A stretch of DNA of 33,813 bases from Bacteroidales bacterium (lineage in GTDB: Bacteria; Bacteroidota; Bacteroidia; Bacteroidales; UBA10428), in NCBI GenBank assembly GCA_016926235.1, contig JAFGOZ010000130.1:1-33813 (forward strand), given 5' to 3'. Position numbers and translations under genes: made by a program. Below are positions 10,614 to 29,307 of the stretch, piece after piece. Within the stretch, counting starts at the first letter, position 1. Every line of letters begins with the position of its first letter. The notes under the pieces were generated by a model. It was given only the letters and a program-made list of their open reading frames with translations. It was not told the origin of the DNA and searched no databases.

Positions 10614-11399
10614 ATGAATACATCCAATAATAAACTCCCCATTGACCTTTTTATCAGGATGTCGGTTATAAAGGATTTAGGCTATAAGCTGAGTGATAAA
10701 TCTGTTATTCTGGATTTCGGGTGCGGTAGCGGTAAGAAGGTCCGAGTACTTCGCGATCTCGGATACCGAGCATATGGTTGTGGGACTAGATTTAACATCG
10801 AAAATGATGTTGATACTGAATCAATGATGCATGACGGACTAATCCGTGAGATCAATCTAAAGAGATACGTTTTGCCTTTTGAGGATAACACATTTGATTT
10901 CATTTTCAGTGAATCCGTATTCGAACATGTTAATAATTATTCAGAATCAATCTCTGAACTGGCAAGGGTTCTAAAACCAGATGGAGTTTGCCTGCACACT
11001 TTCGTTTCCAAGTTTAAACCAGTCGAAGTTCATGTTAAGATTCCGTTCGCTTCATTCATTCAATCCTACTGGTGGCTCTATTTTTGGGTTTCCCTGGGTT
11101 GCAGGAACGAGTGGACCGATTGTCAATCAGTAAAGGACAGAACAAAAAGGTATCTTAATTATCTCAAGGAAGAAACGAATTATCTCGGTAGGAGAGATTT
11201 ATTGAACCATCTTAAATCGGGATTTGAGAGTGTTGCTTTCTGCGAGAGACTGTACTTGAAATATTCACCTGGACGCAGAAGGTATCTTTATTCCTTCGCA
11301 AAAATATTCCCTTTTGTTCCTCGTATTTTCAGCACTTTCAATCAAAGGGTAATTGCCACCAGAATTCCGATTAAAGCCACAAATAAAGTGAAGATTTAA
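10614..11399 (+). CDS. SAM-dependent class I methyltransferase
   Basis: This 261-residue protein has motif I of the Rossmann methyltransferase fold, ILDFGCGSG (D34, G36, G38, G40), and a later FSESVFEHV...LARVLKPDG block typical of Methyltransf_11-type enzymes. The C-terminal ~120 residues are rich in aromatic and basic residues. In a glycan cluster the likely role is O- or N-methylation of a sugar, or of a lipid-linked intermediate, using S-adenosylmethionine in the cytosol. No substrate can be read from sequence. It is followed after 64 bases by the deacetylase-like gene. Confidence 0.88.
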   Translation: MNTSNNKLPIDLFIRMSVIKDLGYKLSDKSVILDFGCGSGKKVRVLRDLGYRAYGCGTRFNIENDVDTESMMHDGLIREINLKRYVLPFEDNTFDFIFSESVFEHVNNYSESISELARVLKPDGVCLHTFVSKFKPVEVHVKIPFASFIQSYWWLYFWVSLGCRNEWTDCQSVKDRTKRYLNYLKEETNYLGRRDLLNHLKSGFESVAFCERLYLKYSPGRRRYLYSFAKIFPFVPRIFSTFNQRVIATRIPIKATNKVKI

Positions 11400-11463
11400 G
11401 TCAATCTCGAGATGTGTAAAAAAAGCTAACAGAATAGAATTTACAAATTCAGAAGTCTAATTA

Positions 11464-12441
11464 ATGGAGTTTATACTGACAATAGACACAGAAGGAGATA
11501 ACCAGTGGAGTCACGGACGAAGTCTTTCATGCGAGAATATAAGATACGTACCACGCTTTCAACGCATGTGCGATAGTTATTCCATAAAGCCGACTTATCT
11601 GGTCACATCAGAAATATGTGAAGATAGATTTGCCCAAGAAATCTTTTGTGAATACTCAAAACATGACAGGGCTGAGATAGGGGCTCATCTTCATGCGTGG
11701 ACTACACCACCTTTTCTGGACCGAGACGGTTACCGAATAAATGACAAGTGCCATGCTTTTGCCCATGAGTTGCCGGAGCTATTGCTAAACGAAAAAATCA
11801 CGGTATTGACACAGCAAATTGAGAATGCTTTTGGAAAAAGGCCTCAATCATTCCGGTCTGGCCGATACGGATTTGATATAAATGTTGCGAGAATTCTAGC
11901 TGATCATTCATATCTGGTTGATTCCTCTGTTACACCTTTCGTCAATTGGTCATCAAATAAGGGGTTGCCAGGAGGTCCTGGGGGGCCTGATTTTATTGAG
12001 AGCAATCCCCTGCCATATAGATATACATTTGGAGGTAAATTCCTCATGGAAATCCCTTTAACTATTCTGCCAACTGTATTTCCGTTCAATAGAAGTGATA
12101 AAATTGCCCGGTTCTATTTTAGACATCTTAAAAACAATAGGATATTAAAGGTTGTCAATAGAAAGATTATCGGTCATCAGCCACTTTGGTTAAGGCCAAA
12201 TTCTTGGATGAATGTTGAATTGTTCCATGATTTATTTCGTGAAGCGGAGAAAATACAGCTTCCGTATCTTGTAATGATGCTTCACTCAAGTGAGCTGATG
12301 CCCGGCTGTTCAATATACTGGAAAGATGATTCCGCTGTTGAAGAATTATATAAACTTCTTGAGGGCTTCTTTGCCATAATGCAGGATAATATGATCAAGT
12401 CTGTTACATTGACAGAAGCAGCTCAGAAATTAAAAAAATGA
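11464..12441 (+). CDS. Polysaccharide deacetylase-fold protein (WalW-like)
   Basis: This 325-residue protein starts TIDTEGDNQWSHG (D8, E10, D12), a variant of the NodB TFDDG motif seen in WalW-type deacetylase-fold proteins. It also shows GAHLHAW (H75, H77) in place of H-S-x-x-H, FRSGRYGFD as a motif-3 equivalent, and MLHSSEL late in the chain, like the conserved L-H motif. No signal peptide is seen, so it probably acts in the cytosol on a nucleotide-linked or lipid-linked sugar, perhaps removing an N-acetyl group. Its stop overlaps the next start by ATGA, so it is translationally coupled to a GT4 gene; the two may act on the same residue. Activity is inferred from fold alone. Confidence 0.8.
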   Translation: MEFILTIDTEGDNQWSHGRSLSCENIRYVPRFQRMCDSYSIKPTYLVTSEICEDRFAQEIFCEYSKHDRAEIGAHLHAWTTPPFLDRDGYRINDKCHAFAHELPELLLNEKITVLTQQIENAFGKRPQSFRSGRYGFDINVARILADHSYLVDSSVTPFVNWSSNKGLPGGPGGPDFIESNPLPYRYTFGGKFLMEIPLTILPTVFPFNRSDKIARFYFRHLKNNRILKVVNRKIIGHQPLWLRPNSWMNVELFHDLFREAEKIQLPYLVMMLHSSELMPGCSIYWKDDSAVEELYKLLEGFFAIMQDNMIKSVTLTEAAQKLKK

Positions 12442-13634: not shown

Positions 13635-14540
13635 ATGAGTAAGAACTCACCCAAAATTACGGATAAGTTGTTTTTTCAGAGGTATATACTCGGCATAAGT
13701 CGCAGTAATATCCACGATATAATCAAAACTAAAGAATTCAATCCTCAGATTAAATGGCTCCCGACCCGTACTTATAAAAGATTTCGAGCTGATCCCTTTT
13801 TCGTTCAATCAAAAAATGGGGACATTAAAATTCTTTACGAGGAATTCTTTTTAAAAGATGATTATGCCGCGATTTCGCTGCTTACACTTAACAAAAATCT
13901 GGAGGAGACCTACTCTAAAATCCTCCTGGATACTAGGAGTCATCTATCATTCCCTTTTGTGTTTACAGAACGAGATAAGATCTATGTTTTCCCCGAGTCA
14001 AGTAAGAGCGGCAAATTGTCATGTTATGAATATAACCCTGATCTGGAGACTCTTTCCTTTGTGAAGCATATCATTGAACTGCCTCTGGTTGATTCGGCTA
14101 TTCTGCTGCACAGGGATAAATACTGGATTTTCGGATCAGTCGCAAAAGCGGACAAAAGCTACGAGTTATTAGTTTTCTTTTCAGACAATCTGTTGGGGCC
14201 ATATCAACCACATCCAACCAACCCTATTAAGAGCGGATTAGACGGTATCAGGGCTGCAGGTAATTTTATAGTTGTTGATAACTGCATTTACAGGCCTACC
14301 CAAAACTGTGAAAATGAATATGGGGAATCAATAACAATAAATAAGGTCACCAACCTCAATGAAAATTATATCGACGAAGAACCCTATATGCAAGTATCAA
14401 TTAACAAGAGTAACAGACTCAATCATAATATACGTACAATACATACTATCAATATCTTGGGTGATTATTTAACAGTTGATGGGAAATGTTATTCCTTCGC
14501 ACCACTATATAAATTATTGAAATTCTTTAGAGGCTATTAA
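13635..14540 (+). CDS. GINT1-like (glucosamine inositolphosphorylceramide transferase N-terminal domain) protein
   Basis: This 301-residue soluble protein looks like the beta-propeller-type domain annotated as the N-terminal domain of plant glucosamine inositolphosphorylceramide transferase 1. Visible markers are RADPFF (ADPF at 52-55), SHLSFPFVF, a YVFPES block, an LLGPYQPHPTNPI block, GIRAAGNF and YRPTQNCENEYGESI. Bacterial relatives are often fused to a formyltransferase-like domain; this one stands alone. Family members occur in surface-glycan loci but their bacterial reaction is not established. It sits between two GT4 genes, so a role in sugar transfer or modification of the repeat unit is the best guess. 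Family match is by remembered motif pattern. Confidence 0.65.
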   Translation: MSKNSPKITDKLFFQRYILGISRSNIHDIIKTKEFNPQIKWLPTRTYKRFRADPFFVQSKNGDIKILYEEFFLKDDYAAISLLTLNKNLEETYSKILLDTRSHLSFPFVFTERDKIYVFPESSKSGKLSCYEYNPDLETLSFVKHIIELPLVDSAILLHRDKYWIFGSVAKADKSYELLVFFSDNLLGPYQPHPTNPIKSGLDGIRAAGNFIVVDNCIYRPTQNCENEYGESITINKVTNLNENYIDEEPYMQVSINKSNRLNHNIRTIHTINILGDYLTVDGKCYSFAPLYKLLKFFRGY

Positions 14541-19264: not shown

Positions 19265-19921
19265 ATGATACTATACTTTACGGGAATTGACGGGTCGGGG
19301 AAAACCACGCTGGTTAATGACATTGAAAGACGCCTTAACGAGCAAAATATTAAGACGTTAAGAATTTGGGCACGCTATACCCCGAGATTCTCTAAAATAT
19401 TTGTCAACGTATTGAAGAAAAAGACGGTAAACAATACAGGCAATTATAATACTATTTCCGAACCGGATTATACCAAATGGCAATTGCGCAAGAACCAATT
19501 TGCACATAACAATCTGGTACGTTTGACAGTATTTACTTTCTTTTTTCTCGACTATTATAGTCAAATTTCGAGAGTCATTAGGAAAATCAGGAAAAATAAA
19601 AACAAAACCATACTGATAGACCGCTTTGTAATAGATTTTCTTTCTGATCAGACAGTCAATTTTGGTGATTTGTCAGGTACCTGTATTTTCAGATGGTTAA
19701 TGAAAATTTGTGACTCTTTAGATATGGTATTCTTTATATCAGTAAAACCAGTAGTGGCACTGAGTCGTAAAAACGATATTCCGGGGATTGATTATTTGGA
19801 TGTTAGGGATCGAGCCTACAGAGATATAATAAAAAGGTTGAAGAATGGTTATATTATAGACAATAACGGCCCGCAAGATTTGGCAATTCAGGAAATTATT
19901 AAAGTTATTCAAGTAAGATGA
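19265..19921 (+). CDS. Thymidylate kinase-like P-loop protein
   Basis: This 218-residue protein opens MILYFTGIDGSGKTT with the Walker A loop at residues 7-15, as in dTMP kinases. An in-frame ATG at 19229 lies inside the upstream gene and is unlikely as start. A LIDRF segment resembles the DRY-like substrate-site motif and DVRDRAYRDI resembles the lid/helix region. The TREPGG-type motif of housekeeping thymidylate kinases is not seen, so the substrate is probably not dTMP; a sugar, nucleoside or lipid-linked substrate is possible. It overlaps the phosphohydrolase gene by ATGA, suggesting a linked phosphorylation/dephosphorylation step. Role in the glycan pathway is inferred. Confidence 0.75.
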   Translation: MILYFTGIDGSGKTTLVNDIERRLNEQNIKTLRIWARYTPRFSKIFVNVLKKKTVNNTGNYNTISEPDYTKWQLRKNQFAHNNLVRLTVFTFFFLDYYSQISRVIRKIRKNKNKTILIDRFVIDFLSDQTVNFGDLSGTCIFRWLMKICDSLDMVFFISVKPVVALSRKNDIPGIDYLDVRDRAYRDIIKRLKNGYIIDNNGPQDLAIQEIIKVIQVR

Positions 19922-21345
19922 TTCGGATTATTGGTATTGATGGCCTTGATATAAATATTATAAAAAGGCATTTTGAAATACTACCAAATTTCAAGAAACT
20001 ATTTGAGACAGGTGTATTAAATCCAATAGAATCAGTTTTCCCGGCTGATTCTGTTCCCGCTTGGACAACAATTTTTACAGGACTCAATCCTGCCGAACAT
20101 GGGATCATCAGGGGTATAGATTATGTTGAGAGTGTTAGCGCTTTTCAGGAAAAACATGGTTTCATACTTCAGGGAAAAACATTCTGGGACCATTTATCGG
20201 AGAAGGGCTATAAATGTTTGGTAATTAATCCGTTTTTGGCATATCCTGCATGGGAGATAAACGGTATAATGGAAAGTGGCCCGGCTTTTATTGAAGGTGA
20301 TTATTCGATTTTCCCGATGAATGCCGATTCTCTTCATCCTGAGATTCTGGGCGGGTACAGCGCTATTTCAAACCTTGCAGGACTGAAGGCTGAAATTGAG
20401 AAGGTTTTTTTCGATACCGATCTGTTGTGGAAAGAATACGAATATCAGGCCGATAAGGACAACTTTGACCTGGAGTTTGTGACTTTTACTACCCTTGATA
20501 GGGTGCAGCATTATACCTGGAGGTATTATGATCCCAATGATCCGCTGCATGAACAAGATGATTTTTTCTCAGGGTGTATTCCACTGCTTTTGAAGACATT
20601 TGATGAAAAGCTTGGAGCAATAATGCTTAAAATGAACGAGGGTGATAGCCTTGTTCTAGTAAGCGACCACGGATTCAGACAAAGACCATATGAATTAATC
20701 AACCTCAATGAATATCTTAGGAATAAAGAATTGCTCATTGTGAAAAAGGAATATGACAAATCATCTGTAAGGCAAATACAAAGACTAAAAAAGAAAGCTA
20801 TCTTATTCCTGTCACATTTAAGAATTCTGGATATGATTGCCTCCCGCCTTAGGAAGTATAAAAGTGTCGGTCAACTTAAGAAATCGGACCATTTGATTGA
20901 TAAAGAAAACTCTGTATGCTATACTGATGATTTATTCTCAGGGAAAAAACCCTACGTTGGTTTAAATTTTGGAGAGAAGATAAAGGCATCAGGTAGCCAG
21001 GGGAGAATGAAAGCTTTCGGGGAAATTTCATCTGTCCTTAATTCTGGTGCTATTCCAAGGCCGATTTGGATAAAAAGATCCGAGGATCTTTATTCGGGCA
21101 AATTTCAGTTCAGGATGCCTGATGTGTGCCTGGAATTTCCTCCTGAAAATGGCGTGGAGTTCAATTATTTCGGGCCAATTCTCGAAAAAAGCACAACTCA
21201 CTACAGAATTTCCGGAGGTCATTTTGGATCGGGAACTTTCGGTTACTTTTGTAGGAGCAATAAAGAAATACAACCACCTAAAACTCTACTTGATTTTTTC
21301 AGGTTCATTAATGATTTGCGCTATGAAAATTCTTCTGGCAAATAA
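19918..21345 (+). CDS. Alkaline phosphatase superfamily phosphodiesterase/phosphohydrolase (NPP-like), cytosolic
   Basis: This 475-residue protein has all the metal-ligand positions expected of the alkaline phosphatase superfamily: D8 in GIDGLD, a candidate nucleophile S45 in ADSVPAWTTIFTGLNPAEHG, D194 and H198 in TTLDRVQH, D250 and H251 in VSDHG, and H435 in SGGHFG. No signal peptide or membrane segment is visible, so it should act in the cytosol, unlike many secreted family members. It is coupled upstream to the kinase-like gene (ATGA) and its 3' end overlaps the next GT4 start by 23 bases. It may hydrolyse or transfer a phosphoryl group on a nucleotide sugar or lipid-linked intermediate; substrate unknown. 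Confidence 0.83.
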   Translation: MIRIIGIDGLDINIIKRHFEILPNFKKLFETGVLNPIESVFPADSVPAWTTIFTGLNPAEHGIIRGIDYVESVSAFQEKHGFILQGKTFWDHLSEKGYKCLVINPFLAYPAWEINGIMESGPAFIEGDYSIFPMNADSLHPEILGGYSAISNLAGLKAEIEKVFFDTDLLWKEYEYQADKDNFDLEFVTFTTLDRVQHYTWRYYDPNDPLHEQDDFFSGCIPLLLKTFDEKLGAIMLKMNEGDSLVLVSDHGFRQRPYELINLNEYLRNKELLIVKKEYDKSSVRQIQRLKKKAILFLSHLRILDMIASRLRKYKSVGQLKKSDHLIDKENSVCYTDDLFSGKKPYVGLNFGEKIKASGSQGRMKAFGEISSVLNSGAIPRPIWIKRSEDLYSGKFQFRMPDVCLEFPPENGVEFNYFGPILEKSTTHYRISGGHFGSGTFGYFCRSNKEIQPPKTLLDFFRFINDLRYENSSGK

Positions 21346-22540
21346 ATTCTATTATCCAAGGGGTGGCGATTGTATTTATACAATCGAGCTTGAGAAACTT
21401 CTTATTGGCAAAGGTCATGAGGTGGCGATCTTTTCTATGCAGCACCCTTCAAATCAGGCGTCGGAATTTTCAGGATATTTCCCAAGCCATGTTGACTTCA
21501 ATAAACGCAACATCAAGAGTCTTATTTCTATATTGGTACGCCCTTTTGGATCATGCGAAGTAAGAAGAAATTTCAAGCGGTTGATCAGCGACTTCAAACC
21601 TGACATTATCCATTTGAATAACATACATTCTCAATTGTCACCGGTACTTGCATTATTGGGCCATAAATACAATATTCCGGTAGTATGGACTCTGCACGAT
21701 TATAAATTGGTATGCCCGGCATATTTGCTACTGAGCGGCGGTAAATCTTGTGAAGCATGCCTGGACAACAAATGGAGCGTTACCCGTAAAAAATGTATTA
21801 AGAATAGTTTTCTTGCAAGCCTGGTGGCTTATCTGGAGGCTTATTACTGGAACCCACGAAAACTCAATCGAATAACAGACTGGTTTATATCTCCCAGTAA
21901 TTTCCTGAAAGAAGAAATGATAAAGGGGGGGATTGATAAAGCGAAAATAGGAGTTTTACACAATTTTGTAAAGCACGAAACTGTCAAAATTGACCACGGT
22001 CTCAAAGAAGATTATTACTGTTACGTCGGGAGGTTGAGCTCGGAAAAGGGCATTGATTTGTTGCTGGAGGCTGCCTCAGGATTGCCTGCTTATAAGCTTA
22101 AGATTATCGGGACAGGTCCCCTTGAAGAGAGTCTGATTTCAGGTAACAATAATAAAAATGTAGAATTCTTTGGGTACAAGACCGGGGAAGAACTGAGATC
22201 CATAATATCAGGCTCAAGATTTTTGACCGTTCCTTCAAATTGGTTTGAAAATAACCCACTTACAATTCTGGAGGCATTATGTATGGGAGTACCGGTCCTG
22301 GGTTCAAATATCGGAGGTATTCCCGAATTGATCAAGCCCGGGTTTAATGGAATTTTATTCGAACCTAGTAATGTCGCAGAGATGAGAGAAAAGATCGACT
22401 ACCTATGGCGCAATCACAAAATGTTCGACAGAAGTGAAATTGCGAGTCATGCGGCCCGGCATTATACATCAGAGCATTATTACGAATCCGTGATTGACCT
22501 TTACAATTCATTGTTAATAAAGAGGAAGGCGATAAACTGA
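21323..22540 (+). CDS. Glycosyltransferase family 4, first copy of a tandem pair
   Basis: This 405-residue GT4 starts at ATG 21323 (MKILLANKFYYPRGGD), inside the last 23 bases of the phosphohydrolase gene. This start is supported by the next gene, whose product begins with the same 21 residues. It has a GGD-type acceptor loop, WTLHDYKLVCPAY, four Cys in the insert near residues 135-155, YCYVGRLSSEKGIDLLL, and FENNPLTILEALCMG with an E-x7-E pair in the donor site. It is 79% identical to its neighbour over the first 100 residues by eye. It probably adds a sugar to the repeat unit in the cytosol. Confidence 0.92.
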   Translation: MKILLANKFYYPRGGDCIYTIELEKLLIGKGHEVAIFSMQHPSNQASEFSGYFPSHVDFNKRNIKSLISILVRPFGSCEVRRNFKRLISDFKPDIIHLNNIHSQLSPVLALLGHKYNIPVVWTLHDYKLVCPAYLLLSGGKSCEACLDNKWSVTRKKCIKNSFLASLVAYLEAYYWNPRKLNRITDWFISPSNFLKEEMIKGGIDKAKIGVLHNFVKHETVKIDHGLKEDYYCYVGRLSSEKGIDLLLEAASGLPAYKLKIIGTGPLEESLISGNNNKNVEFFGYKTGEELRSIISGSRFLTVPSNWFENNPLTILEALCMGVPVLGSNIGGIPELIKPGFNGILFEPSNVAEMREKIDYLWRNHKMFDRSEIASHAARHYTSEHYYESVIDLYNSLLIKRKAIN

Positions 22541-22618: not shown

Positions 22619-23830
22619 ATGAAGATCCTTCTCGCGAATAAGTTCTATTATCCTCGTGGAGGCGATTGTATTTACACAATCGGACTTGAAAAGCTTCTGA
22701 AGGATAAAGGTCATGATGTGGCAGTCTTCTCAATGCAGCATCCTTCCAACCGGGCTTCAGAATATTCATCTTATTTCCCCAGCCATATTGATTTTAACAA
22801 GCGAAGCTTGAGAAGCTTTATTTCTCTGTTAGTCAGGCCTTTTGGCTCTTCTGAGGTAAGTGTGAAATTCACTCGTTTAATAAATGATTTTAAACCTGAT
22901 ATAGTACATTTAAACAACATCCATTCTCAGTTGTCGCCAGTAATCGCGCTTATTTCTCATAAGTACAACATTCCCGTAGTATGGACCCTTCATGATTACA
23001 AACTCATATGCCCTGCTTATTTATTACTAAGTAACGGCAAGCCATGCGTGGCTTGTCTCGACAATAAGTGGAGTGTTGTTAAAAAGAGGTGTATCAAGAA
23101 CAATTGGCTGGCTAGCCTTGTTGCTTATTGGGAGGCACGCTACTGGAACTCGTCGAGACTCAGTGAAATTACGGACAGATTTATTTCTCCCAGTAATTTT
23201 TTAAAGGAAAAGATGATGGCAGGTGGGATTAATCCGGCAAAGATCGAAACGCTTCATAATTTCATAGACATATCCAGTCATAAAGTGACGACTGAGGCCG
23301 ATAGCAATTATTACTGTTATGTTGGTAGACTGAGTTCGGAGAAGGGAATTGAAACACTGCTGAAAGCTGCCTCAGGGTTACCCGGATTCAAACTTAATAT
23401 AATTGGAACAGGTCCGCTGGAAGAGCTTCTTATTTCAGGCAACAGACTGGACCATGTTGAATTTTTGGGTTACAGAACCGGTAGTGAACTGAATTCAATA
23501 ATTTCCAGGGCCAGATTTCTAGTTATTCCATCTGAAGTGTACGAAAATAATCCTTTAACTGTGCTGGAAGCATTAAGCCTGGGGGTTCCGGTTCTGGGGT
23601 CAAATATGGGAGGAATACCTGAATTGGTTAATCCAGGACTTAACGGTTTGTTATTTGAATCAGGCAATGTCATGGATTTGCAGGAAAAGATCACATATAT
23701 GTGGCAAAATTCTGAAGAATTTAACCGGGATGCTATTGCAAAAGATGCACAATCAAATTCCAATGCGAATAATTATTATGATAAATTATTTCATATTTAT
23801 AAAAGTGTCATTGAAAGAATCAATCAATAG
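22619..23830 (+). CDS. Glycosyltransferase family 4, second copy of a tandem pair
   Basis: This 403-residue GT4 is a close paralogue of the preceding gene, 78 bases downstream. It shares the same N-terminus, WTLHDYKLICPAY, the Cys-bearing insert (CVACLDNKWSV...RCIKN), YCYVGRLSSEKGIETLL and YENNPLTVLEALSLG (E-x7-E). The two differ most in residues 60-90, the central 175-260 region and the C-terminal 40 residues. The pair probably arose by duplication; the copies may add similar sugars to different acceptors. It is followed after 18 bases by the radical SAM gene. Confidence 0.92.
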   Translation: MKILLANKFYYPRGGDCIYTIGLEKLLKDKGHDVAVFSMQHPSNRASEYSSYFPSHIDFNKRSLRSFISLLVRPFGSSEVSVKFTRLINDFKPDIVHLNNIHSQLSPVIALISHKYNIPVVWTLHDYKLICPAYLLLSNGKPCVACLDNKWSVVKKRCIKNNWLASLVAYWEARYWNSSRLSEITDRFISPSNFLKEKMMAGGINPAKIETLHNFIDISSHKVTTEADSNYYCYVGRLSSEKGIETLLKAASGLPGFKLNIIGTGPLEELLISGNRLDHVEFLGYRTGSELNSIISRARFLVIPSEVYENNPLTVLEALSLGVPVLGSNMGGIPELVNPGLNGLLFESGNVMDLQEKITYMWQNSEEFNRDAIAKDAQSNSNANNYYDKLFHIYKSVIERINQ

Positions 23831-23848
23831 TTTATAACACTGGATTTA

Positions 23849-24985
23849 ATGGATACAAATAATATTTCACTGCCTACTGATGCCTCGATTATTACTACAT
23901 ACCGCTGTCAGATGCGGTGTAAAATGTGTAATATCTGGAAATTCCCGACAGATGAAAGAAAAGAAATTACAGCAAGGGACCTGGAAAAATTATCGTCATT
24001 AAAATTTGCAAACGTTACTGGTGGAGAACCATTTCAAAGACGAGACCTTGAAGACATTGTTTCTGTGCTATTTACAAAAGCACCTAGAGTAGTGATTTCT
24101 ACCTCAGGCTGGCATTATCAGAAAATAGTAGATCTTGCCAAAAAATTTCCGAAGATCGGAATAAGAGTAAGCATCGAGGGATTATCGCAAGCAAATGATG
24201 ATCTGAGGGGCCGTGAAGGAGGGTTTGACAACGGACTTAAAGTTCTTCTTAAGCTCCGTGAAATGGGTATTAAAGACATTGGTTTTGGTATTACCGTTTC
24301 AAATAAAAATTCGGAGGACATGCTATGGCTTTACCGGTTGTCAAAAGAGCTAAATATGGAGTTTGCAACGGCCACATTCCATAATTCATATTATTTCCAT
24401 AAGGATGACAATAAAGTGATCAATAAAGACCTTGTCATCGAGCACTTTGAGGAACTGATTGAAAAACTGCTTAAGGAAAATAATCCCAAGAGCTGGGCGC
24501 GGGCCTTCTTTAATCTCGGACTTATTAACTACATAAAGGGTGGAAGGAGGATGCTACCATGTGAAGCCGGCAATGCCAACTACTTTGTTGAACCCTACGG
24601 TGAGGTGTATCCATGCAACGGGTTGGAAGACCGGATATGGAAGGAAAGCATGGGAAATATCCATGATTATAACAGTTTCGAAGAGCTGTGGTACAGTGAA
24701 CAAGCGAAAAAAGTACGTGACCTGGTTAAAATATGCCCTAAGAATTGTTGGATGGTAGGAACGGCCGCCCCGGTTATGAAAAAATATCCACGGCATCCTG
24801 CAAAATGGATACTGGAGAATAAGACGAGAAGCCTAATGGGGAAGGATATTAAATTTGACACTATACCTTATTACAATGTTGGACAAAATCCTCTTCAGGG
24901 TGACCTGAATTATGCCCGCATGAAGCCATTCACAGACGATAAGGGGGTTAAGCCAGATCCTGATCTTCCGCTCATCGAGGAGTAA
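23849..24985 (+). CDS. Radical SAM protein with reduced SPASM/twitch-like C-terminal domain
   Basis: This 378-residue protein has the CxxxCxxC radical SAM motif (C20, C24, C27, in YRCQMRCKMCNIW), followed by a VTGGEPF SAM-binding motif. The C-terminal part has PCEAG (C238), GEVYPCNGL (C256), then C296 and C300 in ICPKNCW, and the phrase MGNIHDYNSFEELW typical of SPASM domains. Only four auxiliary Cys are visible, enough for one extra [4Fe-4S] cluster rather than the two of a full SPASM domain. It would generate a 5'-deoxyadenosyl radical to oxidise or rearrange a substrate; in this cluster a sugar is possible. A flavin reductase-like gene follows and may supply electrons. Substrate unknown. 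Confidence 0.88.
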   Translation: MDTNNISLPTDASIITTYRCQMRCKMCNIWKFPTDERKEITARDLEKLSSLKFANVTGGEPFQRRDLEDIVSVLFTKAPRVVISTSGWHYQKIVDLAKKFPKIGIRVSIEGLSQANDDLRGREGGFDNGLKVLLKLREMGIKDIGFGITVSNKNSEDMLWLYRLSKELNMEFATATFHNSYYFHKDDNKVINKDLVIEHFEELIEKLLKENNPKSWARAFFNLGLINYIKGGRRMLPCEAGNANYFVEPYGEVYPCNGLEDRIWKESMGNIHDYNSFEELWYSEQAKKVRDLVKICPKNCWMVGTAAPVMKKYPRHPAKWILENKTRSLMGKDIKFDTIPYYNVGQNPLQGDLNYARMKPFTDDKGVKPDPDLPLIEE

Positions 24986-25030
24986 AGTACCATATTTGTC
25001 TGATTCAAAAAAGTATTACCAAGCATAATA

Positions 25031-25669
25031 ATGAACTTGCGAAAGGTCATCAGCAAGCGGGAGCTTCCCGGGTCAGCCTATATATTACGCTTCGAAAGAG
25101 AGGGACTGAACTTTGACCCGGGTCAGCACTTAACTGTGGGTATCGTAGACGATGACGATCGTCCGTACTCTATTTATAGCGGCCTTAATGATGACTATAT
25201 AGAGGTGTTAATTAAGGAGGTAAGAAACGGCAATATCTCAAACAAACTGAAATTGTTACAGCCGGGAGACCTGGTAGTTGTCGGGTCACCACATGGATCA
25301 TTTACTCTTGATCAGGGCATGTTGGAAAAAGAGAAATTATGGCTCATTGCCACAGGTACAGGAATATCACCATTTCATAGCTTTGTGCGTTCCTTCCCTG
25401 CTCTTGACTATAGGGTAATTCATGGAATAAGGTTTCATCAAGAAGCTTACGACAAGGATTTTTTCGGAGCTCAATACTTTTATTGCACCACAGGAGACGC
25501 ATCGGGTAACTTTAACGGGAGAGTTACAGAATATTTGAAAAATGAAGAGTTGGATGACACAGCCCATTATTTCCTTTGTGGCAATTATAAAATGCTTGAT
25601 GACGTTTATGATGTGTTGACTTCAAAAGGAATAAATGGGGCGCAGATTAAATCCGAAGGATATTTCTGA
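25031..25669 (+). CDS. Ferredoxin-NADP reductase-like FAD/NAD(P)-binding oxidoreductase
   Basis: This 212-residue protein is a compact FNR-superfamily enzyme. RPYSIYSG (from R44) is the flavin-binding RxYS motif, and the NAD(P) domain has ATGTGISPF (109-115) and YFLCGNYKMLDDVYDVL, ending with an aromatic residue as many FNRs do (EGYF). There is no fused [2Fe-2S] ferredoxin domain or membrane segment, so it should pass electrons between NAD(P)H and a separate iron-sulfur or flavoprotein partner. It follows the radical SAM gene by 45 bases and precedes a GT4 gene by 2 bases. A role as reductase for the radical SAM enzyme is inferred from position only. Confidence 0.85.
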   Translation: MNLRKVISKRELPGSAYILRFEREGLNFDPGQHLTVGIVDDDDRPYSIYSGLNDDYIEVLIKEVRNGNISNKLKLLQPGDLVVVGSPHGSFTLDQGMLEKEKLWLIATGTGISPFHSFVRSFPALDYRVIHGIRFHQEAYDKDFFGAQYFYCTTGDASGNFNGRVTEYLKNEELDDTAHYFLCGNYKMLDDVYDVLTSKGINGAQIKSEGYF

Positions 25670-25671
25670 AG

Positions 25672-26763
25672 ATGAAAGTAATTGTCACAGGCACGAGAGG
25701 GATACCTGATATTCAGGGTGGCGTTGAAACACACTGTGAGGAACTCTTCCCCCGCCTGGTCGGAAACGGGATTGATGTTACTCTGGTGAGGAGATCCTGC
25801 TATGTGGCGCCAAATAATAAAATAGCTGAATTCAAGGGAGTAAAACTTAAAGATCTGTATGCACCTCACCATAAAAGTCTCGAAGCCACCATTCACACAT
25901 TTCTGACAATAATATGGGCAAAGTTAAACGGTGCTGATATTCTGCATATTCACGCAATTGGTCCGGGAATTCTGACACCTTTTGCAAGACTCCTTGGCCT
26001 GAAAGTTGTCTTTACCCATCATGGACATGATTATGACCGTAAGAAATGGGGCAAATTTGCAAAAGCTATTTTAAGACAAGGAGAAAGACTGGCTAGCTTA
26101 CATGCCAATGAGGTCATAGTAATATCAGATGTTATTAAGAAGTCTTTGGCAGAAAAATATGGTCGCATCAATACTAATTTGATCTTTAACGGAGTACCCG
26201 CTCCTGTCATATCACAACGGAGGGATTATATTGAAAGTCTGGGCCTCAATCCGCGAAATTATGTTTTTACATTGGGAAGGTTTGTCGGAGAAAAGGGATT
26301 TGATCTGTTGATAAATGCATTTTCAAGGCTGGACAACCGAGAATTAAAACTGGTAATCGCTGGCGAATCAGATCACGAGACAAACTATTCGAGATCACTT
26401 AAAGAGCTTGCCCAGAAACATAATGTAATATTACCGGGTTTTGTCAGAGGTGAAAACCTACATCAATTGTTCAGTCATGCAAGATTGTTTGTTCTTCCTT
26501 CCTTTCATGAGGGGTTACCAATATCACTTCTTGAGGCAATGAGTTACAGCTTGCCTGTTGTAGTGAGTGACATTCCCGCAAATAAGCAAATTGATTTACC
26601 GCCGGAGGACTTTTTTCTGACAGGTAGTGAGGATTCTTTAATCACAAGTCTTCAAGGTCATTTGTCAATGGAATATGAACCTACGACATACAACATGAAA
26701 CCTTACGACTGGGACAGGATCGCCTTGATGACAAAATCAGTTTATGAATTGGTTTGGGTATAG
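25672..26763 (+). CDS. Glycosyltransferase family 4 (GT-B fold)
   Basis: This 363-residue protein begins VTGTRGIPDIQGGVETHCEE (residues 5-24), resembling the GTRGIP-x-x-x-GG-x-E start of rhamnosyl/fucosyl-type GT4 enzymes of the DUF1972 group. Donor-site marks are FTLGRFVGEKGFDLLI, VIAGES and HEGLPISLLEAMSYSLPVV with an E-x7-E pair. The start lies only 2 bases after the reductase stop, so the two are likely co-translated. It adds one sugar to the repeat unit; rhamnose-type donors are a guess from the N-terminal motif. Confidence 0.92.
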   Translation: MKVIVTGTRGIPDIQGGVETHCEELFPRLVGNGIDVTLVRRSCYVAPNNKIAEFKGVKLKDLYAPHHKSLEATIHTFLTIIWAKLNGADILHIHAIGPGILTPFARLLGLKVVFTHHGHDYDRKKWGKFAKAILRQGERLASLHANEVIVISDVIKKSLAEKYGRINTNLIFNGVPAPVISQRRDYIESLGLNPRNYVFTLGRFVGEKGFDLLINAFSRLDNRELKLVIAGESDHETNYSRSLKELAQKHNVILPGFVRGENLHQLFSHARLFVLPSFHEGLPISLLEAMSYSLPVVVSDIPANKQIDLPPEDFFLTGSEDSLITSLQGHLSMEYEPTTYNMKPYDWDRIALMTKSVYELVWV

Positions 26764-28893: not shown

Positions 28894-29307
28894 ATGGTAA
28901 TTGATCATATTTGTTTTGCGGTAAGAGATATCAAGGAAGGTATCAGGTACTGGATCGATGTATTTGGATATACACAAATGACAGAGGTTGTCGAAAATAC
29001 GCTTCAACATGTTAAAGTAACATTCTTAAAAAAGGAAAATAGTATGCTGATCAAGCTGATAGAACCAACAGAAGAAAATGAGAGTCTAAAGAATTTTGTA
29101 TTCAGGGGAGGGGGGTTCCATCATGTCTGCTTCAAGTGTTCAGATGTAAAAAAAGAAATGGCGAATTTATCATCAAAAGGATTGATGACGCTGGCGCATC
29201 CTCAACCCGGAGAAGCATTCAATAATCACAAAATTGCCTTTATGCTGGCAAAATACGGCTTGAATTTAGAATTGATTGATACAGATGAAAAGGCCTCTCT
29301 TCTATGA
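28894..29307 (+). CDS. VOC superfamily metalloprotein (glyoxalase/methylmalonyl-CoA epimerase-like)
   Basis: This 137-residue protein fits a single VOC module of two beta-alpha-beta-beta-beta repeats. The four expected metal-ligand positions are occupied: H5 in IDHICFAV, E57 in KLIEP, H76/H77 in FHHVCF, and E126 in LELID. The family includes glyoxalase I, fosfomycin-resistance proteins and methylmalonyl-CoA epimerase; the chain length and motifs fit an epimerase or isomerase best. It lies 5 bases after the GNAT gene, so it may supply or process an acyl donor, or act on a sugar. No precise reaction can be given. Confidence 0.82.
   Translation: MVIDHICFAVRDIKEGIRYWIDVFGYTQMTEVVENTLQHVKVTFLKKENSMLIKLIEPTEENESLKNFVFRGGGFHHVCFKCSDVKKEMANLSSKGLMTLAHPQPGEAFNNHKIAFMLAKYGLNLELIDTDEKASLL

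Follow-up and report, generated by a model that had tools for sequence, protein, structure and literature searches.

Gene organization of the locus

The window analysed here, which is the whole stretch of 33,813 nucleotides, carries on its plus strand a polysaccharide cluster encoding a Wzy-like protein, eight proteins with a glycosyltransferase (GT) group 1 domain, acyltransferases, a polysaccharide deacetylase and a flippase-like protein, the last of which matched PF01943 with 22.7 bits, below the cut-off of 28.2. Four genes of the window, encoding a GT4 glycosyltransferase, a radical SAM protein, an FNR-like flavoprotein reductase (hereafter FNR) and a second GT4 glycosyltransferase with a DUF1972 domain, stand in a row with gaps of 18, 45 and 2 bp, and the open reading frames (ORFs) of the radical SAM protein and the FNR were both found where the initial annotation had placed them. 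The features of this row are as follows.

22619..23830, + strand: GT4 glycosyltransferase, upstream of the radical SAM gene (domain match)
23849..24985, + strand: radical SAM/twitch (SPASM) protein, 378 aa (PF04055 and PF13186 above cut-off; AlphaFold2 model)
23906..23929, + strand: CxxxCxxC codons (C20, C24, C27), expected ligands of the SAM-binding cluster (invariant in 33 sequences)
24560..24748, + strand: twitch region with C238, C256, C296 and C300, expected ligands of one auxiliary cluster (SPASM match 238-300; invariant in 33 sequences)
25031..25669, + strand: FNR-like flavoprotein reductase, 212 aa (FAD_binding_6 and NAD_binding_1; motifs; fused relatives)
25160..25171, + strand: RPYS, expected FAD-binding motif (seen in the sequence; role from general knowledge)
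25355..25372, + strand: GTGISP, expected NAD(P)-binding motif (seen in the sequence; role from general knowledge)
25672..26763, + strand: GT4 glycosyltransferase with DUF1972 domain (PF00534, PF13439, PF09314)

Elsewhere in the glycan cluster, the GT4 genes at 21122-22540 and 22619-23830 share a near-identical stretch, MKILLANKFYYPRGGDC, which is the start of the second ORF and internal in the first, and by their sequences the two look like a tandem duplication. Because the listed ORF overlaps the one at 19918-21345, the true start of the 21122-22540 gene probably lies at MKILLANKFYYPRGGDC. The overlapped ORF encodes a type I phosphodiesterase/nucleotide pyrophosphatase protein (PF01663, 106.6 bits). 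Beside a GNAT protein, the cluster also encodes a small protein of the glyoxalase fold (28894-29307) that resembles methylmalonyl-CoA epimerase (62.8 bits, cut-off 115), and the protein at 13635-14540 carries a GINT1_N domain (113.2 bits), which is known from glucosamine inositolphosphorylceramide transferase.

A twitch-type radical SAM protein of glycan clusters

The radical SAM protein has cysteines at positions 20, 24, 27, 238, 256, 296 and 300 only, and when its sequence was shuffled 20000 times a CxxxCxxC motif remained in only 41 cases. It matched the Pfam models Radical_SAM (PF04055, 56.6 bits, cut-off 29.5) and, over residues 238-300, SPASM (PF13186, 34.2 bits, cut-off 21.5). Five of the seven cysteines were invariant in an alignment of 24 sequences and C20 and C24 nearly so, one row starting late, and all seven were invariant in a wider alignment of 33 sequences. 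The AlphaFold2 model has a mean pLDDT of 91.7. With CxxxCxxC in a radical SAM barrel and C-terminal cysteines for one auxiliary cluster, the protein belongs to the SPASM/twitch subgroup. The initial annotation had counted only four auxiliary cysteines, and the count is correct, but it is no oddity, since four is the ordinary pattern of twitch, which an excerpt of PMC10470005 describes as the SPASM version with one auxiliary cluster; the idea of an unusual cysteine count was therefore dropped.

Relatives of this protein are numerous. A protein search returned 4636 proteins at E<=1e-20 among 7592 candidates, and a scan of genome contigs located 471 places encoding a relative, of which the best 80, 65-83% identical, were kept. 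These 80 loci come from Bacteroidota, several classes of Pseudomonadota, Campylobacterota, Thermodesulfobacteriota, Verrucomicrobiota, Fibrobacterota and one spirochaete. Within Bacteroidales the distribution is patchy, the gene being present in 30 of 393 genomes (E<=1e-80). A plasmid search gave 21 records, none with an identity of 60% or more.

Among the neighbours of the radical SAM gene the most constant is a relative of the window's downstream GT4, which adjoins the gene in 64 of the 80 loci, lying 3' of it on the same strand within 1.3 kb in 56 and 5' of it in 8 more; of the 16 loci lacking this neighbour several end at contig ends. Upstream of the gene, within 1.5 kb, a relative of either flanking GT4 was found in 48 of the 80. 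Other neighbours include, for example, Wzx, Wzy, Wzc-like, export, UDP-sugar dehydrogenase, priming glycosyltransferase, sulfotransferase and acetylesterase proteins. A common precursor-peptide gene was sought among 204 small ORFs lying no more than 1.5 kb from the radical SAM gene in 81 loci and was not found; the largest cluster of small ORFs covers 4 of the 81, and its three listed members lie on the opposite strand, in flavobacteria. Likewise, among the best 25 of 42 matches in NCBIfam no model was reached above its cut-off, the highest being PTO1314 with 61.8 bits against 306. The suggestions of the initial annotation that the protein works in glycan loci and has no precursor-peptide gene beside it are thus borne out, and clustering with a well-characterised peptide maturase, which it had named as evidence to the contrary, was not seen with the curated NCBIfam models. 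The constancy of the GT4, the polysaccharide genes around it and the lack of a common small ORF together argue for a role in glycan assembly, which we propose from these sequence comparisons with good confidence, and the enzyme is a member of a widespread, unnamed family of glycan clusters.

Two individual observations may be added. In the Tannerella loci L069, L071 and L074, two T. forsythia strains among them, the radical SAM gene lies without an FNR in a polysaccharide cluster of the export/Wzx/Wzy type. In L008 an ORF which by eye is methyltransferase-like (11175-11819) separates the radical SAM gene from the downstream GT4, at the position that the FNR has in other loci.

The FNR is an optional partner, separate or fused

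The 212-aa reductase matched FAD_binding_6 (39.4 bits, cut-off 21.1) and NAD_binding_1 (27.9 bits, cut-off 22) and carries RPYS (44-47), GNIS (67-70), GTGISP (109-114), CG (183-184) and a C-terminal EGYF. Both domains and the RxYS, GTG(I/A)xP and CG motifs of the FNR superfamily are therefore present, and the domain search agrees with its earlier description as a stand-alone FAD/NAD(P) reductase without a ferredoxin domain.

A separate FNR adjoins the radical SAM gene in 6 of the 80 loci (L001, L004, L006, L007, L011 and L012), although that of L006, with 110 aa, appears broken. In 3 more (L063, L064 and L072, the last ending at a contig end) radical SAM protein and FNR are fused, and genome searches that started from the FNR gave three further fusions (L142, L143 and L211). 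L013 has an FNR fragment at a contig end, where the radical SAM gene is not adjacent. The remaining 71 of the 80 loci, some of which end at contig ends, have neither an adjoining nor a fused FNR, and in 29 of the 30 Bacteroidales genomes with the radical SAM gene none lies within its 1.5 kb flanks. Ten contig sizes (16864, 30124, 30395, 9924, 6407, 18458, 165164, 25391, 24821 and 27692) were common to the two lists of best 120 matches, an indication that further pairs exist. The six fused radical SAM domains all belong to a single starred group of seven, whose remaining member (L061) ends at a contig end. The structure model of a fusion has a mean pLDDT of 84.3 and a pTM of 0.71. Motifs are altered in the fused reductase domains, and the strength of NAD(P)H binding may, judging from these changes, vary among them.

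A regular pairing of the two proteins was thus rejected. Since most radical SAM relatives have no FNR and must draw on some other cellular donor, the partnership of the two is optional; the fusions argue that they work together. A neighbourhood survey had been proposed with the annotation, where rare co-occurrence was to count against the pair: the 71 unpaired loci and the 29 Bacteroidales genomes without a neighbouring FNR go halfway towards this.

Members of the FNR family stand beside several radical SAM enzymes

A search of 393 Bacteroidales genomes with an FNR profile gave matches at 146 places in 102 genomes, with 1-3 copies in each, and 70 of these places were examined (the 30 top-scoring ones, 20 of the 21 that followed, and 20 from the top 21 in the second score class) for neighbours on the same strand within 400 bp. 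The FNR lay beside a MiaB-type, RlmN, LipA or the present radical SAM gene at 48 of the 70 (24/30, 8/20 and 16/20, respectively), the partners being MiaB-type in 30 (MtaB in two), RlmN in 16, LipA in 1 and the present radical SAM gene in 1. Among the 22 places without a partner by this rule, L113, L115, L132, L190 and L191 have MiaB or RlmN 404 to 1053 bp away. Partner labels come from small profiles built from cluster members, curated models having been applied to examples only (MiaB L111, MtaB L178, LipA L175 and L178, RlmN L209 and L228, PduO L146, ApbE L165), and the MtaB label of L184 comes from score alone. The curated models were exceeded for RlmN (365 and 357, cut-off 290), MtaB (446, cut-off 357), LipA (347 and 350, cut-off 310), MiaB (387, cut-off 355) and PduO (170, cut-off 108).

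Further partners were seen outside Bacteroidales. The phylum of L063 has 67 FNR places in 37 of 288 genomes, and the 26 examined comprised MiaB (9), a BchE/HpnJ-like radical SAM protein with its B12-binding Pfam match below cut-off (4), a second SPASM protein (1), a fusion (L211), ApbE (6) and none of the families sought (5). The second SPASM protein (L168, 404-2145) is distant, 25% identical to that of the window, and directly precedes its FNR. In the ApbE loci (L164-L167, L169 and L212) the FNR stands beside this flavin transferase, with no sought radical SAM family adjoining. In the class of L064 there are 38 FNR places in 36 of 241 genomes; the 10 examined gave 3 fusions, L064 itself included, and 7 members directly beside a PduO-type cobalamin adenosyltransferase (L144-L150).

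Three FNR members (E<=1e-12) occur in the genome of L007 (Carboxylicivirga, G003) and likewise three in that of L011 (Labilibacter sediminis, G006), in both cases one beside the present radical SAM gene, one beside MiaB (L225 and L226) and one beside RlmN (L228 and L227), at gaps of -10 to 104 bp. Three partner-linked FNRs in one genome are what partner-specific reductases would look like. Eight genomes have 19-39 radical SAM genes each and, with some thousands of genes per genome, a radical SAM neighbour is to be expected, by our estimate, for about 2% of random genes; the comparison with chance and INDEPENDENCE is to be read with the FNR rows as not independent, the MiaB and RlmN pairs being inherited. 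The donor argument draws its weight from the fusions and from how many different partner families there are. By fusion and by adjacency the FNR is linked physically or genetically to radical SAM enzymes, as was sought of an electron donor. In the open-access literature we found no report of an FNR-radical SAM pairing.

Phylogeny of the FNR family

A careful tree was made with 62 rows, without the long-branched L012 and with random draws from five groups (miab 18 of 42, rlmn 7 of 18, cobA 4 of 7, apbE 4 of 6, none 10 of 24), and a quick tree with 117 rows, from which L006, L013 and the second FNRs of L213 and L216 were dropped as weak or broken and for which L113, L115 and L132 had been relabelled by hand as MiaB-linked. 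In the 62-row tree the five separate FNRs of the present radical SAM enzyme form one clade (100/97), as do the five complete fused FNRs (100/97), the BchE/HpnJ-like-linked (100/98), the cobalamin-linked (100/100), the LipA-linked (100/92, two rows) and the MtaB-linked members (100/100, two rows). MiaB-linked FNRs are not one clade, and all 18 RlmN-linked FNRs lie in one starred group of 22 rows. Fused and separate FNRs fall in different clades of the free trees. AU tests did not reject one common clade of the two in either tree (p 0.113 with 62 rows; p 0.705 with 117 rows, where the constrained tree had the higher likelihood), and at least two independent recruitments of the FNR to this radical SAM enzyme were therefore not upheld.

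Proposed function and alternative explanations

We consider it rather probable that this is a glycan-modifying radical SAM enzyme with an NAD(P)H-dependent flavoprotein as its electron donor, the latter being an optional module of a recruited family. The radical SAM protein would modify a sugar of the surface polysaccharide, most likely while it is part of a nucleotide- or lipid-linked precursor on which the neighbouring GT4 acts, and would use one SAM cluster and one auxiliary [4Fe-4S] cluster; from the gene context we infer a sugar substrate, and any given reaction, such as the oxidation, epimerisation or deoxygenation suggested in the initial annotation, is named with low confidence. On the inferred electron path, the FAD of the FNR would take a hydride from NAD(P)H, and the electrons would be given singly to the iron-sulfur clusters, either straight away or by way of a small carrier, allowing SAM to be cleaved. 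The same family appears to have been enlisted to supply electrons to several unrelated radical SAM enzymes next to which its genes lie. Cobalamin adenosyltransferase needs cob(II)alamin to be reduced, so the link to the PduO-type enzyme also fits a donor role. A route without a carrier is plausible because NADPH with free FMN is reported to suffice for PapB (excerpt of PMC10470005) and QueE (excerpt of PMC11994313); activation by FMN/NADPH is also reported for methylthiotransferases (PMC11994313, same excerpt). We place moderate to good confidence in the donor role, which had been proposed earlier as that of a dedicated donor: the fusions and the sister FNRs beside other radical SAM genes strongly favour the donor part, and the 71 loci without an FNR speak against a dedicated, regular partner.

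We advance only tentatively a bolder form of this proposal, in which the compact FNRs would be partner-specific reductases carrying electrons from NAD(P)H straight to the clusters of the linked MiaB, MtaB, RlmN, LipA, BchE/HpnJ-like and SPASM/twitch enzymes with no flavodoxin or ferredoxin in between, and the fusions would be single-chain, self-reducing enzymes acting on polysaccharide sugars. A possible but doubtful alternative makes the FNR a general flavodoxin/ferredoxin reductase that charges a carrier for all radical SAM enzymes, its placement reflecting co-regulation and no dedicated or direct contact. Its best PDB sequence matches, which are ferredoxin/flavodoxin-NADP reductases, speak for this alternative, as do the one to three copies per matching Bacteroidales genome and the lack of an FNR in most radical SAM relatives; it accounts poorly for copies fused to the radical SAM protein, for tree groups that follow the partner and for three partner-linked copies in one genome.

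Pathways to 3,6-dideoxyhexoses employ FNR-type proteins that carry a ferredoxin domain, and in a cluster that makes a glycan the FNR might serve a sugar-reducing or deoxygenating step and not the radical SAM enzyme; we regard this as highly improbable, as the fusion partner is the radical SAM protein itself and sister FNRs stand beside MiaB, RlmN and LipA genes, which are unrelated to sugars. It is also unlikely, if slightly less so, that the radical SAM protein matures a peptide (RiPP) or protein whose precursor is encoded at a distance. The SPASM/twitch fold would suit such a maturase, and SkfB is the best PDB sequence match and tied second by fold, but no set of small ORFs within 1.5 kb of the gene extends to more than 4 of 81 loci, one GT4 type is its neighbour in 64 of 80 loci and no NCBIfam maturase model reached its cut-off among the best 25 of 42 matches, and this reading was rejected as unlikely.

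The preferred reading, a glycan-modifying enzyme with an optional flavoprotein donor, marks a widespread and uncharacterised radical SAM enzyme of surface-glycan clusters. The occurrence of one reductase family beside or inside several unrelated radical SAM enzymes provides named candidate pairs for direct tests, among which those with MiaB and RlmN have measurable RNA products, and the family may be a natural electron supplier for this enzyme class.

Comparison with known systems

Among twitch enzymes acting on sugars, BtrN (4m7t) and SpeY (7wzv) have low identity to the present enzyme, and their substrates are antibiotic precursors. BlsE, the cytosylglucuronate decarboxylase (PDB 7vob), is 17% identical in the fold alignment and likewise belongs to an antibiotic pathway. 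The flavodoxin domain of eukaryotic TYW1 is N-terminal and has no NAD(P)H site, whereas the present fusions are bacterial, belong to another radical SAM family and carry a C-terminal FNR with both domains. The likeness lies in the fusion of an electron-transfer flavoprotein to a radical SAM enzyme, TYW1 being described in excerpts of PMC5851275 and PMC4417183 as a flavodoxin domain fused to a radical SAM domain. Flavodoxin, flavodoxin reductase and NADPH are, according to the excerpted part of PMC11994313, the usual 'biological' reducing system in vitro. The present FNR resembles the flavodoxin reductase Fpr of the E. coli type (1fdr, 52 bits) in its FAD and NAD(P)H domains; it is shorter, with 212 aa as against 248, and differs from Fpr also in the linkage of its gene to radical SAM genes, or its fusion with them.
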